Source of the DNA: Bacteroidaceae bacterium
GTDB taxonomy: Bacteria > Bacteroidota > Bacteroidia > Bacteroidales > Bacteroidaceae
DNA length: 44,643 bases
Direction: 5' to 3'
NCBI GenBank assembly: GCA_017445925.1
Contig: JAFSRW010000012.1
Span: forward strand, 1 to 44,643
Position 1 is the stretch's first letter, and each line of letters begins with the position of its first letter. The position numbers and the translations under genes were made by a program. Positions 37,078 through 41,635 of the stretch are shown piece by piece. The notes beneath the pieces were generated by a model. The model saw only the letters and a list, made by a program, of their open reading frames with translations, did not search any database and had not been told where the DNA came from.

Positions 37078-37085
37078 TATATTTG
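37078..37085 (+). promoter_or_regulatory. -7 promoter box for the VTC operon
   Basis: TATATTTG matches TAnnTTTG 22 nt before the ATG at 37107. It shows that the open frame from 37083 is not the true start. Confidence 0.6.
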
Positions 37086-37106: not shown

Positions 37107-37880
37107 ATGGAAATTGACGCTCGTATTAACGAATTGTTGCAGCATTTGGAGCCCATAACGTTGGAACAGATGTCCAGTATTCGTCTGATGAATCGGACGG
37201 ACACCAAATTTGTTACCAGTAAGGAGAAATTGGCCCAACTGTTGGAACTGGCTCAAGGCAAGTATTATGCGCAGTTTAACAACGACAGCAAGATAGCCAA
37301 CTATATGACTACTTACTGGGATACGGACAATCATCGTTTCTTCCTGGAACATCATAACGGACGTGCTCCCCGCCAGAAGGTTCGGGTACGCACCTATATG
37401 GATAGTGATTTAACGTTCTTGGAGGTAAAGACCAAGAACAATCACGGTCGGACCAAGAAGAAACGTGTTGAGGTTCCCTCGCAGGAGATTGAGGTACAGG
37501 GTGCCAACGGAGAATTTGTAGAGGGACTTGTACATCAGGGACTTACAGAAATGCATCCCACGGTCCGCAATCAGTTTCATCGCATCACGTTGGTGAACTA
37601 CGATAAGACGGAACGTCTGACCATCGATTACGATGTTCACTTCCATAACATGGAAACAGGTAAGGATGCTGAGACGGGACCGTTGGTAATCATCGAACTG
37701 AAACGCGACGGAAACGTTTACAGCCCTGTGCTGGAGATTCTGCGCATCCTGCGCATCAAGCCATCGGGATTCAGCAAGTACTGCATAGGCAGCGTGATGA
37801 CCAATAAGAACCTGAAGCAGAATATCTTCAAGGCAAAAATGGTAACCCTTAGCAAATTGGCTAATACAAAATTGAACTAA
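37107..37880 (+). CDS. VTC-domain polyphosphate polymerase-like protein
   Basis: A 257-residue protein made almost wholly of a VTC domain, the tunnel fold that in yeast Vtc4 makes polyphosphate from ATP. Expected tunnel residues are present: Arg30 and Lys34 (NRTDTKF), Arg93 and Arg95 (KVRVRTY), Glu106, Lys108 and Lys110 (LEVKTK), Arg170 and Asp174 (RLTID), Glu197 and Lys199 (IIELK) and Lys224 (FSKYC). It is cytosolic and lacks the SPX and membrane domains of the yeast protein. The next gene, 18 nt on, is a DUF4956 membrane protein that may supply the membrane part. Activity is inferred; another polymer or a tripolyphosphate substrate is possible. Confidence 0.88.
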   Translation: MEIDARINELLQHLEPITLEQMSSIRLMNRTDTKFVTSKEKLAQLLELAQGKYYAQFNNDSKIANYMTTYWDTDNHRFFLEHHNGRAPRQKVRVRTYMDSDLTFLEVKTKNNHGRTKKKRVEVPSQEIEVQGANGEFVEGLVHQGLTEMHPTVRNQFHRITLVNYDKTERLTIDYDVHFHNMETGKDAETGPLVIIELKRDGNVYSPVLEILRILRIKPSGFSKYCIGSVMTNKNLKQNIFKAKMVTLSKLANTKLN

Positions 37881-37898
37881 AATAACTAACAAAACAAT

Positions 37899-38609
37899 AT
37901 GGATTTCTTTAACGACATTAACTACCAACTTGGTAATCTTATCGGGTTAACCCTGTTCGACCCCCAGCATTTCATTTCGCTGGTAATGCGCTTCGCCATT
38001 AATCTGGGAGTAGTTTGCTTTATCGCACGCTGCTTTTATTTCCCTCGCAGTCATCGTCGCGACTACATGTTCATTTTTATCCTCATGTCCGCCAGCATTT
38101 TCTTGTTGGTATCGCTGATGGAGGGCGATGGTATGAATCTGGGCGCTGCAATGGGTCTGTTTGCCATCTTCGGCATTATGCGTTTCCGCACAGAGGCAGT
38201 GCCCATCCGTGAGATGACTTACCTGTTCATGCTCATTGCCGTGAGTGTGGTAAACGCGTTGGGTAAGGCAGAGTATCACCCCAAGGCCGACTACTGGGAC
38301 GGCTTCGGACTGGTTACCATTATCTTTGTCAATGTGGTGTTCGTTGGCATGGCTTGGCTGTTCGAGAGCAGCAAGTTAGTCAGCACGCTGTGCAGCAAGT
38401 ACATCAAGTACGATAACGTAGCGCTGATTACACCTGATAAGCGCGAGGAGTTGAAGGCTGATCTGGAGAAGCGCACAGGTTTGAGAATCATACGCTTAGA
38501 AGTGGGAATGATAGACTACCTGAAGGACAGCTGCCTCATCCGTATCTTCTACGATGAGCCAAAGGATCGCGGCAACAGCATCGAAGGAGTAATGAAAATG
38601 CCCCGTTAA
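37899..38609 (+). CDS. DUF4956 membrane protein
   Basis: A 236-residue protein with four or five membrane helices (about 28-48, 55-73, 80-95, 106-122 and 135-155) and a cytosolic C-terminal domain of about 75 residues. GLFAIFGIMRFRTEAVPIREMTYLF is the family signature region (at about 84-108). DUF4956 genes, from memory, often sit beside VTC-domain genes. A role as membrane partner, channel or regulator of the VTC protein is inferred. It is followed 3 nt later by the DUF2490 gene. Confidence 0.85.
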   Translation: MDFFNDINYQLGNLIGLTLFDPQHFISLVMRFAINLGVVCFIARCFYFPRSHRRDYMFIFILMSASIFLLVSLMEGDGMNLGAAMGLFAIFGIMRFRTEAVPIREMTYLFMLIAVSVVNALGKAEYHPKADYWDGFGLVTIIFVNVVFVGMAWLFESSKLVSTLCSKYIKYDNVALITPDKREELKADLEKRTGLRIIRLEVGMIDYLKDSCLIRIFYDEPKDRGNSIEGVMKMPR

Positions 38610-38612
38610 TAT

Positions 38613-39428
38613 ATGAAGAAGTTTCTCTTGATAGCAGTTTTTCTGGTTCCCGCTATGCTTCATGCACAGTGGACAGACGAGTATGGCACTTGGCTGGAAC
38701 TGGGTGCTAAGAAGAACCTGGGCACCAGGTGGAGCATAGGTTTGGAGGCAGAGTACCGTGCGCAGGAGAATTCACGTTGGGCCCTTGGTGTGGATGCAGG
38801 CTACAAGCTGAACAAGTACATCAAGTTCGGCGCTGGCTACACCCTTATATACAATAGAAAGAAGGCAAAGCAGAATGGCGACCCTGCTGTTGACGACGAA
38901 TACAGCATCAGGCCCGCATACGCTTATCCTCGCCACAGATTCATTGTGGAGGCAACAGCCGACAAAAGGTTCTGGAAGTGGTTGCGTATCTCCCTACGTG
39001 AGCGATACCAGCTAACATACCGTCCTGAAAAGAATTACGAGAAGACGGAATATAACAAGGTCATTGATTTCGACGAGGACTGGAATCCCATAGAAAGTTG
39101 GGAGGAAACCGTTGAGCTAAAGACCAAAGCCGCCCTTACCACACAGTTGCTCCGTAGCCGTCTGAAGCTGGAGGTGGACAAGAAGCGGTGGGACTTCTCA
39201 CCCTTCGTCTCTGCCGAGCTATGCAACAGCGTTCGCGTAGGCGACCACATGAATATAGATAAGGTAAGAACGGCCATAGGAACGGGTTATAAGATTAACA
39301 AGAACCACGAAGTTTCGTTGGCTTACATCCTCACATTCGTCTTTAACGATGATGACGAGTTGAGCGATAAGATTACATACAACAACCGAATACATGCCGT
39401 AAGCATCGGCTATAACTATAAATTCTGA
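38613..39428 (+). CDS. DUF2490 outer-membrane barrel protein
   Basis: A 271-residue protein with a signal peptide (1-18) and a run of amphipathic strands (WLELGAKKNLGTRWSIGLEAEYR, YKLNKYIKFGAGYTLIYN, LRISLRERYQLTYR) ending in YNYKF with a terminal Phe, as barrels do. It matches DUF2490. Its place right after the VTC and DUF4956 genes suggests an outer-membrane pore or anchor for the same system; the function is unknown. Confidence 0.83.
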   Translation: MKKFLLIAVFLVPAMLHAQWTDEYGTWLELGAKKNLGTRWSIGLEAEYRAQENSRWALGVDAGYKLNKYIKFGAGYTLIYNRKKAKQNGDPAVDDEYSIRPAYAYPRHRFIVEATADKRFWKWLRISLRERYQLTYRPEKNYEKTEYNKVIDFDEDWNPIESWEETVELKTKAALTTQLLRSRLKLEVDKKRWDFSPFVSAELCNSVRVGDHMNIDKVRTAIGTGYKINKNHEVSLAYILTFVFNDDDELSDKITYNNRIHAVSIGYNYKF

Positions 39429-39450
39429 AACAAAAATCAAACTTAAGAAT

Positions 39451-39900
39451 ATGAATATGAAGCATCTCTTGACGGCCATCCTGCTGATGGCAAGCACCAC
39501 AATGTGGGCAGATAATTACAACTTCCTGACTGTATCTTCTACTGGCGAGGAATACATCTCTCTGCCAACCATCCAGAAGATTACGTTCTCTGATGGTAAC
39601 TGCGTGGTTACAACTACTAACGGTGATTATACTTATCCCTTGAACGAGATAAAGAAAATGTACTTCTCTGTGGACGACCCCACAGCTATTGAGGCTCTCC
39701 CCCAAGAGGCAGAGAATCTGAAGTACAAGAATGGCAAGCTGAAAGTTGAGGGCGACGGTATGTTGCGCATCTACAGCTCTAATGGTGCCCTGGTGCAGTT
39801 GGCCAACGTAAAGAAAGGTGCCAACATTAACCTAAGCAACCTGAAGTCAGGCCTGTACATTGTTAATATGGGCGACAAGACCATCAAAATAACCAAATAA
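39451..39900 (+). CDS. Small exported protein with a T9SS-type C-terminal domain
   Basis: A 149-residue protein: signal peptide (1-20), a short beta module (about 21-75, ISLPTIQKITFSDGNCVVTT and LNEIKKMYFS), and a C-terminal region (about 88-149, GDGMLRIYSSNGALVQL to LKSGLYIVNMGDKTIKITK) with the features of a type IX sorting domain. There is little between the module and the tail, so it may be a bare surface adaptor. Its N-terminal module resembles that of the following protein. Confidence 0.8.
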   Translation: MNMKHLLTAILLMASTTMWADNYNFLTVSSTGEEYISLPTIQKITFSDGNCVVTTTNGDYTYPLNEIKKMYFSVDDPTAIEALPQEAENLKYKNGKLKVEGDGMLRIYSSNGALVQLANVKKGANINLSNLKSGLYIVNMGDKTIKITK

Positions 39901-39920
39901 CCACTTAAGAAATTTATCAG

Positions 39921-41159
39921 GTGAAGAAGATTTTTTCACTTCTTTTGCTCTTGGCAGCTTGCTCTGTGGCATCGGCTCAGGAGTATATGCGAATTTGGCA
40001 GAACGGTGAAAACGTTAAGGTGCCTCTCTCTGAAGTTACCTTTGCCGAAGACGGAACATCCTTTACAGCCGAAGGCCAGACGTACCAAACCAGCCAAGTG
40101 GACAGCATTACGTTCGTCCACATCATAACTGTAACTTGGGATGGTGCTCAGGCTAACGTGGAGAAAGGCAATGTGTTAGGCATTGACTACACAGTAGAAG
40201 GTGCCCACGTTGTTATCACCAGCACCAATATCCACAACGAGCTAGAGTTTGTTCTGCAAGGTTCCAGCACCAACGGCTCGCTTACCTATAACGGAACCTA
40301 TAAGTGCAAGTTCTATCTGAACGGGCTGAACCTTACCTCGCAGAAAGGTGCCGCATTGGAGATTCTGTGCGGAAAGCGTATTGATTTAATTCTGAACGAA
40401 GGAACCGATAATGTCCTTGTAGATGCAGCCAACGGATCACAGAAGGCGGCTCTATACTGTAAGGGACACCTTGAGGTAGAGGGAGGCGGAAGTCTTACCG
40501 TTACAGGTAAAACCCGTCACGGCATCTGTACAAAGGAATACCTGGAGATTAAGAAGAGCGTGGGCAGCATCACCGTCAACGGAGCTGAAAGCGATGGTAT
40601 TCACGCTGGACAGTACTTCCTGATGAAGGGTGGTACAGTAACCGTTAGCGGTCAGAAGGGCGATGGTATTCAGACGGAGATTCTGACCCTCGATGACGAT
40701 GTTACACCCAACCCCGATAAGGAGTTCAACGGACAGATCTTTATCAAGGGTGGTACCCTCAATGTTACTGCTGCAGCGAATGACAAGAAAGCCATTAAGT
40801 CGGCAGATAAGATGACCGTTACTGGTGGAACCTTTACCATCCTGGCTTCAGGCAAGGGAAGTAAAGGCATCTCTGTTGCCAAACATCTGCTCATCAACCA
40901 AGATGATGCAACCACCAATATGCAGATCAGGGCAACAGGAGGAATATATGAGGATGAAGAAACCGAGGAGGAAACCCGCTGTATGGGTATCAAGGTAGCC
41001 AAGAACATGGCCATCACAGCCGGCACATTAAAAGTTGCCAACACGGGGTCCAAATCTCGCGGTGTAAAGGTGGACGGGTTGTACTATATTGGAGCAGAAG
41101 CCTCCGCAGTAGCAAGTTGGACGGGAACAAAATCCACCACCATGCCGCCAATGGATTGA
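39921..41159 (+). CDS. DUF4353 carbohydrate-binding-like exported protein
   Basis: A 412-residue exported protein starting at GTG (an in-frame stop at 39906 excludes an earlier start). Signal peptide 1-19; beta module about 20-70 (VPLSEVTFAEDG, SQVDSITF) like its neighbour's; then a parallel beta-helix-like DUF4353 region (about 75-400) with turns such as GGGSLTVTGKTRHGI, GGTVTVSGQKGDGI and GGTLNVTAAANDKKAI. This repeat family is annotated as carbohydrate-binding domain-containing. No obvious sorting tail is seen. It ends the VTC operon. Confidence 0.82.
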   Translation: MKKIFSLLLLLAACSVASAQEYMRIWQNGENVKVPLSEVTFAEDGTSFTAEGQTYQTSQVDSITFVHIITVTWDGAQANVEKGNVLGIDYTVEGAHVVITSTNIHNELEFVLQGSSTNGSLTYNGTYKCKFYLNGLNLTSQKGAALEILCGKRIDLILNEGTDNVLVDAANGSQKAALYCKGHLEVEGGGSLTVTGKTRHGICTKEYLEIKKSVGSITVNGAESDGIHAGQYFLMKGGTVTVSGQKGDGIQTEILTLDDDVTPNPDKEFNGQIFIKGGTLNVTAAANDKKAIKSADKMTVTGGTFTILASGKGSKGISVAKHLLINQDDATTNMQIRATGGIYEDEETEEETRCMGIKVAKNMAITAGTLKVANTGSKSRGVKVDGLYYIGAEASAVASWTGTKSTTMPPMD

Positions 41160-41221: not shown

Positions 41222-41635
41222 ATGAAAAAGTTATTCTTTATGGTAATGGCCGTTGCTGCCATTTCATTTGCATCATGCTGCAACAAGTGTGAGAAGACCG
41301 CCGAAGGTTGTGAATGCGACACATGTAAGTGCGAACCCTGCGAGTGTGGTCAGAAGGATGCTTGCGCTACCGAAGAGTGCGATAAGGCTTGTGAGAAGGA
41401 GTGCGACAAAGCTTGTGACAAGGCTTGCGAGAAGGCAGAAGAAGCTGTAGATGCTGCTGCTGAGGCTGCTACCGAAGAGGCAAAGAGCCTGGAGCAGACT
41501 GTAAAGGACGCTGCTAAGGACGTGGCAGATGCTGCTAAGGCTAAAGCTAACGAGACAGTAGAGGCAGGCAAGACCGAAGCTAACAAGGCTATCGACAAGG
41601 GTGCCGAGGAAGCTAAGAAGAAACTGGGTTTGTAA
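41222..41635 (+). CDS. Cysteine-rich small lipoprotein
   Basis: A 137-residue protein not assignable to a known family. A lipoprotein-like signal ends at FASC (Cys19). Residues 19-69 hold 15 cysteines in CxC, CxxC and then CDKAC-type spacing (Cys53, 57, 61, 65 and 69 every four residues). Residues 70-137 are a highly charged, alanine-rich helix (AAKDVADAAKAKANETVEAG) like LEA or apolipoprotein helices. The cysteines suggest metal binding or a disulfide-rich cap. It lies 62 nt after the VTC operon and may be cotranscribed, since no terminator is obvious in the gap. Confidence 0.8.
   Translation: MKKLFFMVMAVAAISFASCCNKCEKTAEGCECDTCKCEPCECGQKDACATEECDKACEKECDKACDKACEKAEEAVDAAAEAATEEAKSLEQTVKDAAKDVADAAKAKANETVEAGKTEANKAIDKGAEEAKKKLGL

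Follow-up and report, generated by a model that had tools for sequence, protein, structure and literature searches.

A VTC-DUF4956 operon with outer-membrane and surface genes in a rumen bacterium: a candidate system for polyphosphate synthesis and delivery

Polyphosphate in bacteria is generally attributed to PPK enzymes, and the fold of PPK1 is unrelated to that of the VTC domain. In the yeast VTC complex, a basic path is reported to lead from the tunnel exit to the channel (PMC9911596). Gram-positive pel operons carry cotH-PPP-DUF4956-DUF4832 accessory genes, in which VTC lies next to DUF4956 (PMC7112168), and VTC/CotH genes are also found in NELoc-2 of Clostridium perfringens (PMC2879425). 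The cotH-VTC-DUF4956 set has already been described in Gram-positives, no function being assigned to it; a two-membrane layout of a VTC-DUF4956 system was not found in the literature searched.

The five-gene operon and its recurrence

The window, which is the whole 44,643-nucleotide stretch of DNA analysed here, comes from a rumen bacterium and contains five tightly spaced genes on the forward strand (37107-41159), confirmed by an open reading frame check, in the following order:

37107-37880, + strand: VTC-domain (TTM) protein of 257 aa, predicted cytosolic polyphosphate polymerase (PF09359, 1.7e-29)
37899-38609, + strand: DUF4956 inner-membrane protein of 236 aa (PF16316, 1.7e-47)
38613-39428, + strand: DUF2490 outer-membrane beta-barrel of 271 aa with a signal-peptide-like N-terminus (PF10677, 3.6e-24)
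39451-39900, + strand: exported protein of 149 aa with a type IX secretion (T9SS) sorting tail (Por_Secre_tail PF18962, 2.1e-7; TIGR04183, 1.3e-7)
39921-41159, + strand: exported beta-helix-type Cthe_2159 protein of 412 aa (PF14262, 2.4e-43; a family that we take to be the former DUF4353, renamed)

The intergenic gaps are 18, 3, 22 and 20 nt. The first-pass annotation had described a chain of five genes with gaps of 3-22 nt, and all five reading frames and Pfam families were recovered. An alternative, longer TTG start for the VTC gene lies at 37083, and the Cthe_2159 gene starts with GTG. Promoter-like and terminator-like sites did not exceed shuffled-sequence counts.

The sorting tail of the fourth protein is of type A, scoring 31.6 bits against PF18962 (cut-off 27) and 31.5 bits against TIGR04183 (cut-off 23), and the genome carries the T9SS protein SprA (2580 bits). 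Residues 110-315 of the Cthe_2159 protein match PDB 4peu (2.6e-9). Twelve family loci read as Cthe_2159, CTD protein, Cthe_2159, where the first match may be an N-terminal part common with the CTD protein; two real Cthe_2159 genes are present at locus L088. Local linkage of CotH and Cthe_2159 was rejected as a general rule, being seen away from VTC at at least three of the 57 Cthe_2159 places listed, all in the same genus as the window (G000, G225). A candidate CotH-Cthe_2159 fusion of 1014 aa in the window genome (L252:8605-11649) was also rejected as weak, its Cthe_2159 part scoring 23.2 bits, below the cut-off of 25.8. The whole frame scores 32.4 bits for Cthe_2159.

Across the bacterium's own family, VTC has DUF4956 as a neighbour at 52 of 54 loci and DUF2490 at 51 of 54, two misses being contig ends, with a gene order that recurs while the flanking genes change. 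In Bacteroides thetaiotaomicron VPI-5482, BT3498 and BT3499 encode DUF4956 and DUF2490 (PMC10434189). At 30 loci from other families, DUF2490 occurs in eight and HlyD-like adaptors in 18, and the two are mutually exclusive. DUF4956 is present in all 29 VTC-containing genomes among 148 from the phylum. The arrangement is far above chance, in surveyed loci that all come from one phylum and are not independent of one another. Such a survey had been proposed in the first-pass annotation; DUF2490, CTD and Cthe_2159 genes do recur with VTC-DUF4956, and these neighbours are not random. Since the gene caller favours long reading frames, at times antisense, locus tallies were taken from an HMM scan, whose CotH model is built on three sequences, misses members and finds fewer CotH than another search did. 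The survey is without the VTC places G016:C24 and G022:C160 (a fragment) and the DUF4956 genome G038.

At one adaptor-type locus, a neighbouring gene encodes an OEP protein (L133:6297-7613; PF02321, 4.3e-17). The c13 protein was considered as a TolC-like outer-membrane factor and set aside, as one member gave no Pfam match and the best PDB profile match was 0.13. In 12 of 15 fetched loci, DUF4956 stands with adaptors but no VTC, and its cargo may therefore be a different one.

Catalytic residues and predicted folds

The window VTC protein matches PF09359 over the whole domain (103.5 bits; curated cut-off 23), and a profile of 26 bacterial VTCs matches yeast Vtc4 (PDB 3g3q) at 2.1e-17. Nine Vtc4 catalytic positions are invariant among 42 aligned VTCs, the window protein included. 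R93, R95, E197 and K224, mapped by hand from the profile match with 3g3q to Vtc4 R264, R266, E426 and K458, are kept in 42/42, 26/26 and 34/34 sequences, and the main tunnel residues named in the first-pass annotation are present. Three other mapped positions differ, with D32 at Vtc4 T198 and H82 and K110 at R253 and H283. At the acidic metal-2 patch, R30, R120 and K199 are basic and D32 acidic; one position of this hand mapping may be misplaced, because the paper gives four basic Vtc4 residues and the mapping finds T198 at one. A CYTH-type ExExK motif with both glutamates is absent from the window protein, which reads R30-T-D32-T-K34, with the R and D in 42/42. The VTC of locus L125 has serine at the places of R296 and R253. 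L125, L128, L140 and five loci lacking a refined start are left out of alignment A5, and a later tally adds these back; the alignments cover part of the available relatives (58 of 80 for DUF4956, 51 of 77 for DUF2490 and 41 of 71 for VTC). From these residues, the VTC protein looks polymerase-competent. Pfam finds the VTC domain alone in the 257 aa, with no SPX and no transmembrane domain. No VTC-DUF4956 fusion was seen among the loci fetched; a 542-aa frame in Bacteroides cellulosilyticus (L192) was rejected as one, because undetermined bases separate the two genes within it.

DUF4956 is predicted to form five long helices followed by a C-terminal alpha/beta domain (AlphaFold2 pLDDT 81.4), and the model matched no PDB fold at E<=0.001 and no known transporter. 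The DUF2490 model is a barrel (pLDDT 91.8) with conserved Arg/Lys pairs in lumen register and a residue, E202, that is acidic in 52/52. Its best VIA-align matches are NalP, BrkA, KdgM, EspP and NanC, autotransporter barrels matching as well as KdgM does, while Foldseek alone places FadL first.

Proposed mechanism and competing readings

The operon may encode machinery for the synthesis and delivery of an anionic polymer, of which inorganic polyphosphate is the likeliest identity, a reading that we hold with evenly balanced confidence. It draws on gene order, co-occurrence, residues and predicted folds, from which the chemistry, transport and interfaces are inferred. Judging by homology and residues, cytosolic VTC would use the gamma-phosphate of ATP to build polyphosphate within its tunnel. 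The nascent chain would then be handed to DUF4956, the putative counterpart of the fused transmembrane regions in yeast VTC. In the window lineage it would exit through the basic-lumen DUF2490 barrel, and elsewhere in the phylum by way of HlyD-type adaptors, related to EmrA/AcrA, together with an outer-membrane factor. At the surface, the T9SS-tail and Cthe_2159 proteins could bind or use the chain, as could CotH kinases in most such genomes. Counting against this reading are the lack of a VTC-DUF4956 fusion among the fetched loci, the unmatched DUF4956 fold, the three differing VTC positions, the DUF4956-adaptor loci that lack VTC, the autotransporter and FadL matches and the acidic E202 of DUF2490, and the presence of PPK1 in most VTC genomes of the phylum.

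The VTC protein could instead be a TTM enzyme that yields a different product, acting as a triphosphatase, a cyclase or a maker of signals, and DUF4956 could be a sensor or regulator in the membrane; we regard this as unlikely. The activities of TTM enzymes are diverse, and AtTTM3 is reported not to produce polyphosphate even though it shares its tunnel-centre residues with Vtc4 (PMC4641920). An acidic residue two before the first lysine, found in all 33 VTCs covering that site (D in 15, E in 18), also fits such an enzyme. However, three of the four hydrolase acidic-patch positions are basic by the hand mapping, in which one may be misplaced, and the equivalent of K458, a residue of little importance in the hydrolase AtTTM3, is invariant. 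It is less probable still that polyphosphate made by VTC and DUF4956 is kept in the cytosol or periplasm for storage and stress, with DUF2490 and the exported proteins as separate envelope genes. PPK1 has no match in the window genome, and within the family VTC and PPK1 occur together in five of 101 genomes when 18.7 are expected (p 5e-9; by genus, p 0.0019), as if VTC met the housekeeping need. Yet this exclusion fails across the phylum, where PPK1 is found in 134 of 148 genomes and in 26 of the 29 with VTC; VTC was therefore rejected as a general PPK1 replacement and is not simply the polyphosphate maker. In addition, DUF2490 or an adaptor recurs next to the pair in 51 of 54 family loci and 26 of 30 loci from other families, which argues against separate envelope genes.

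The co-occurrence with CotH raises the prospect, in our view a doubtful one, that the chief role of the system is to supply extracytoplasmic CotH kinases with a phosphoryl donor or acceptor polymer for surface phosphorylation. CotH is present in 29/29 phylum genomes with VTC versus 31/119 without, and in 50/54 family genomes with VTC versus 18/47 without (median copies five versus zero). It lies within 10 kb at at least six of 31 VTC places outside the window genome among the matches listed (0.68 expected), with two further cases found by Pfam, and the Gram-positive cotH-PPP-DUF4956 operons are in keeping with this (PMC7112168). On the other hand, the window genome has 13 CotH matches and none on the window contig (C66), CotH lies beside VTC in one of 54 family loci (by a weak model), and VTC lies beside none of the 150 CotH places among the matches listed. 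VTC also occurs without CotH in four of the 54 family genomes and in the control Bacteroides ihuae, and a genome-level correlation can reflect lineage. Chance or lineage neighbours without joint function, to which a survey of non-independent loci from a single phylum lends some weight, are very improbable given that the order is kept as the flanks change and that both families also match in Corynebacterium glutamicum and Methanosarcina acetivorans.

The first-pass reading of a synthesis-to-surface chain is partly supported, through its conserved unit, its apparently polymerase-competent VTC and the co-occurrence of DUF2490, CTD and Cthe_2159; it did not foresee the CotH partner or the adaptor exchange. 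The replacement of the outer part by adaptors in other lineages and the strong genomic partnership with CotH are new here.

If the synthesis-and-delivery reading is true, the operon would represent a second, VTC-type polyphosphate maker with its own membrane and surface genes, and many gut and rumen bacteria could purposely send polyphosphate outside. DUF4956 and DUF2490 would each gain their first assigned function, the joint occurrence of VTC and CotH genes would have a reason, and one could test directly where extracytoplasmic kinases obtain their phosphate. More speculatively, and with small probability, VTC-DUF4956 might export polyphosphate and so provide bacteria and archaea with a phosphoryl donor beyond the membrane that does not depend on ATP. 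The chain would pass through DUF2490 or adaptors, be held at the surface by Cthe_2159 and be spent by surface CotH kinases in phosphorylating secreted proteins or polymers. A donor role of this kind, if true, would account for kinase activity in the extracellular space, where little ATP is available.

Comparison with known systems

The yeast VTC complex (Vtc4; PDB 3g3q, 8i6v) has a homologous tunnel domain, shares the main catalytic residues with the window VTC and likewise places synthesis beside a membrane partner. Unlike it, the window protein has no SPX or membrane part by Pfam; the membrane partner is DUF4956, with no matched fold, and outer-membrane and surface genes then follow. As in the Gram-positive cotH-PPP-DUF4956 set, VTC adjoins DUF4956 and CotH is present in the genome, but CotH is not adjacent, and DUF2490, the T9SS cargo and Cthe_2159 stand in place of DUF4832. 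The adaptors beside VTC-DUF4956 in other families, one with an OEP gene, recall EmrA/AcrA tripartite export, whereas the window operon contains no adaptor or outer-membrane factor. KdgM and NanC, monomeric porins for acidic oligosaccharides, have a basic lumen. DUF2490 is a similar barrel by fold, with a basic lumen predicted from its model; the likeness is one of fold only, and autotransporter barrels match equally well. PPK1, finally, would share with the window VTC the same proposed product.

Conservation of the operon

Five genes lie in order on one strand, with intergenic gaps of 18, 3, 22 and 20 nt that bear out the 3-22 nt given in the first-pass annotation. By Pfam, and with the gene that follows, they are:

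37107-41159, +, operon of VTC, DUF4956, DUF2490, a type IX secretion (T9SS) tail protein and Cthe_2159
41222-41635, +, 137-aa Cys/Lys/Ala-rich protein, 62 nt downstream of the operon, with a lipobox-like start by eye

Cthe_2159 is the former DUF4353, and the upstream neighbours, which we take from their sequence to be frr and rsgA, are oriented opposite to the operon. The Cys-rich protein has no Pfam match at E<=0.01, and a similar 132-aa gene occupies the same place in another locus (L158). The genome (3.3 Mb, 83.7% complete), of which the window makes up contig C66, has a single VTC match; its closest named relatives are MAGs, many of them ruminant-derived, that bear the titles Bacteroidaceae, Prevotellaceae or Bacteroidales.

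The operon is a two-membrane form of the VTC-DUF4956 unit, and this form is conserved. The survey drew 98 loci containing VTC or DUF4956 from genomes of the family and phylum, and 80 further named loci came from a DUF4956 alignment; all were scanned, together with the window, using purpose-built HMMs. Among 54 Bacteroidaceae VTC loci (window counted), DUF4956 follows VTC in 52, the other two (L103, L107) ending at a contig edge. DUF2490 is found in 51, Cthe_2159 at any place in 46, and the tail protein followed by Cthe_2159 in 36, so that the co-occurrence of these outer genes with VTC-DUF4956, a check proposed earlier, is confirmed; flanking genes vary from genus to genus. The named loci, biased to close relatives as the best 80 of 575 confirmed, contain VTC in 79 (the exception, L231, begins at a contig end), DUF2490 in 80 and Cthe_2159 in 51.

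Outside the family, 30 VTC loci were fetched of 32 places, and all contain DUF4956. DUF2490 occurs in eight (upstream of VTC in L122, L128 and L139), HlyD-like adaptors in 18, both together in none and neither in four. A further 15 loci, fetched of 16 genomes, have DUF4956 but no VTC match, and 12 of them contain an adaptor. Searches with the adaptor families hit EmrA (5.9e-23, from 13 of 18 members) and, at 8e-8 at best, RND membrane fusion proteins. Next to one VTC lies a gene for an outer-membrane efflux protein.

Loci L147-L157 lack VTC but share a row of DUF4956, an EmrA-like adaptor, an exported-looking protein (410 aa) that belongs to no known family, and an enzyme called SDR-like by eye. 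Lipoprotein-like genes with carboxypeptidase-regulatory/SdrD-like domains lie slightly upstream of VTC at L207:5886-6620 and L206:4838-5548. Six Bacteroidales loci have, immediately upstream of VTC, a small exported-looking repeat protein of ~135 aa, two members of which gave no Pfam family above cut-off:

L184:6700-7107
L207:6663-7058
L221:5077-5478
L222:6659-7099
L234:6793-7209
L236:6717-7124

Enzyme, membrane protein and proposed route

Searching the PDB with a profile of 26 diverse bacterial VTCs recovers yeast Vtc4 (2.1e-17), and residues were mapped by hand from this alignment.

Window residues and their Vtc4 equivalents
K34, R93, R95, K108, K118: K200, R264, R266, K281, K294
R159, R170, E197, K224: R361, R373, E426, K458

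All nine positions are invariant among 42 VTCs including that of the window, in keeping with the tunnel residues first reported; the 26 diverse proteins differ only at R170 (R 25, K 1), and eight more loci show the same conservation except for one truncated row. Differences from Vtc4 are D32 (T198), K110 (H283) and H82 (R253, mapping unsure). K200, K281, K294, R361 and R373 count among the catalytic residues of Vtc4. Passages of the literature report that Vtc4 was inactivated by changes to R264, R266 and E426 (PMC9911596), describe K458 as catalytic and place four glutamates of hydrolytic TTMs where Vtc4 is basic (PMC4641920). By the hand mapping, in which one position may be misplaced, the window has R30, D32, R120 and K199 at these places, three basic residues and one acidic, which tends to favour a polymerase.

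In the alignment of the 26 diverse proteins, two VTC subtypes differ at the N-terminus: R-x-D-x-K, the window type, mostly with an N-terminal extension, versus R-x-E-x-K, which begins near the motif and lies mostly beside adaptors.

The DUF4956 structure model (pLDDT 81.4) has long helices at 22-51, 54-73, 77-97, 103-121 and 138-156, followed by an alpha/beta domain at the C-terminus, with no match among solved folds. Since conserved residues around 47-55 and 95-105 include R53, R95, R97 and R104, the positive-inside rule suggests that these loops and the C-terminal domain are cytosolic, and the protein is a putative channel. The best reading, for which we put the chances at about even, is that VTC would make polyphosphate, DUF4956 would move it, and release would proceed through DUF2490 or the adaptor route.

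As to the polyphosphate kinase PPK1, VTC may take over where it was lost: the two occur together in 5 of 101 family genomes against 18.7 expected (p 5e-9; by genus p 0.0019), and the incomplete genome studied here gave no PPK1 match. Near exclusion does not extend to the phylum, however, as PPK1 is found in 26 of the 29 VTC genomes of the phylum draw. Taken together, these counts make it probable that VTC fills a separate role alongside PPK1.

Surface proteins and CotH

The genome encodes SprA of the T9SS and two further pairs of tail protein and Cthe_2159 away from the operon. Their tail proteins were found by a purpose-built HMM (6.5e-18, 3.7e-16); one falls below the Pfam cut-off of 27 with 25.9 bits, and the other has no Pfam match. 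The profile of the Cthe_2159 protein also hits a tail protein through its own N-terminal part (4e-5). One pair (contig C13) lies between two CotH genes downstream of an ECF sigma factor; the other (C58) has a CotH gene ~5 kb off. The C13 cluster (L252:2190-11649: ECF sigma factor, CotH, tail protein, Cthe_2159 and another CotH that includes a weak Cthe_2159 stretch) reuses the operon's two surface gene types.

CotH, an extracytoplasmic kinase family, accompanies VTC across the phylum draw (29/29 VTC genomes vs 31/119 others, p 2e-14; by genus 21/21 vs 22/62, p 4e-8), p-values that overstate the association because rows share ancestry. In the family, CotH occurs in 50/54 VTC genomes vs 18/47 others, and three or more copies in 38/54 vs 1/47; against the link, four VTC genomes of the family, and the control Bacteroides ihuae, have VTC and no CotH, and the window contig carries none either. 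Among the matches listed, CotH lies within 10 kb of VTC at at least six of 31 places outside this genome (0.68 expected), and Pfam shows two more near VTC. Of the six CotH proteins scanned next to VTC, five have T9SS tails.

No open-licence PMC paper pairing the VTC domain with DUF4956 was found. The available text of such papers gives no function for DUF4956 where it is named, nor a joint function where CotH is paired with the VTC domain, DUF4956 or polyphosphate polymerase. C. perfringens NELoc-2 is described, in excerpts, as carrying VTC and CotH genes (PMC2879425, PMC11677781). In streptococci, clostridia and bifidobacteria, cotH, a poly-phosphate polymerase and DUF4956 adjoin pel genes, and a regulatory role for CotH there is offered as a suggestion only in the portion of the paper available (PMC7112168). 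Whereas the window contig carries no CotH, this Gram-positive pel-linked set places cotH beside the VTC-type polymerase and DUF4956.
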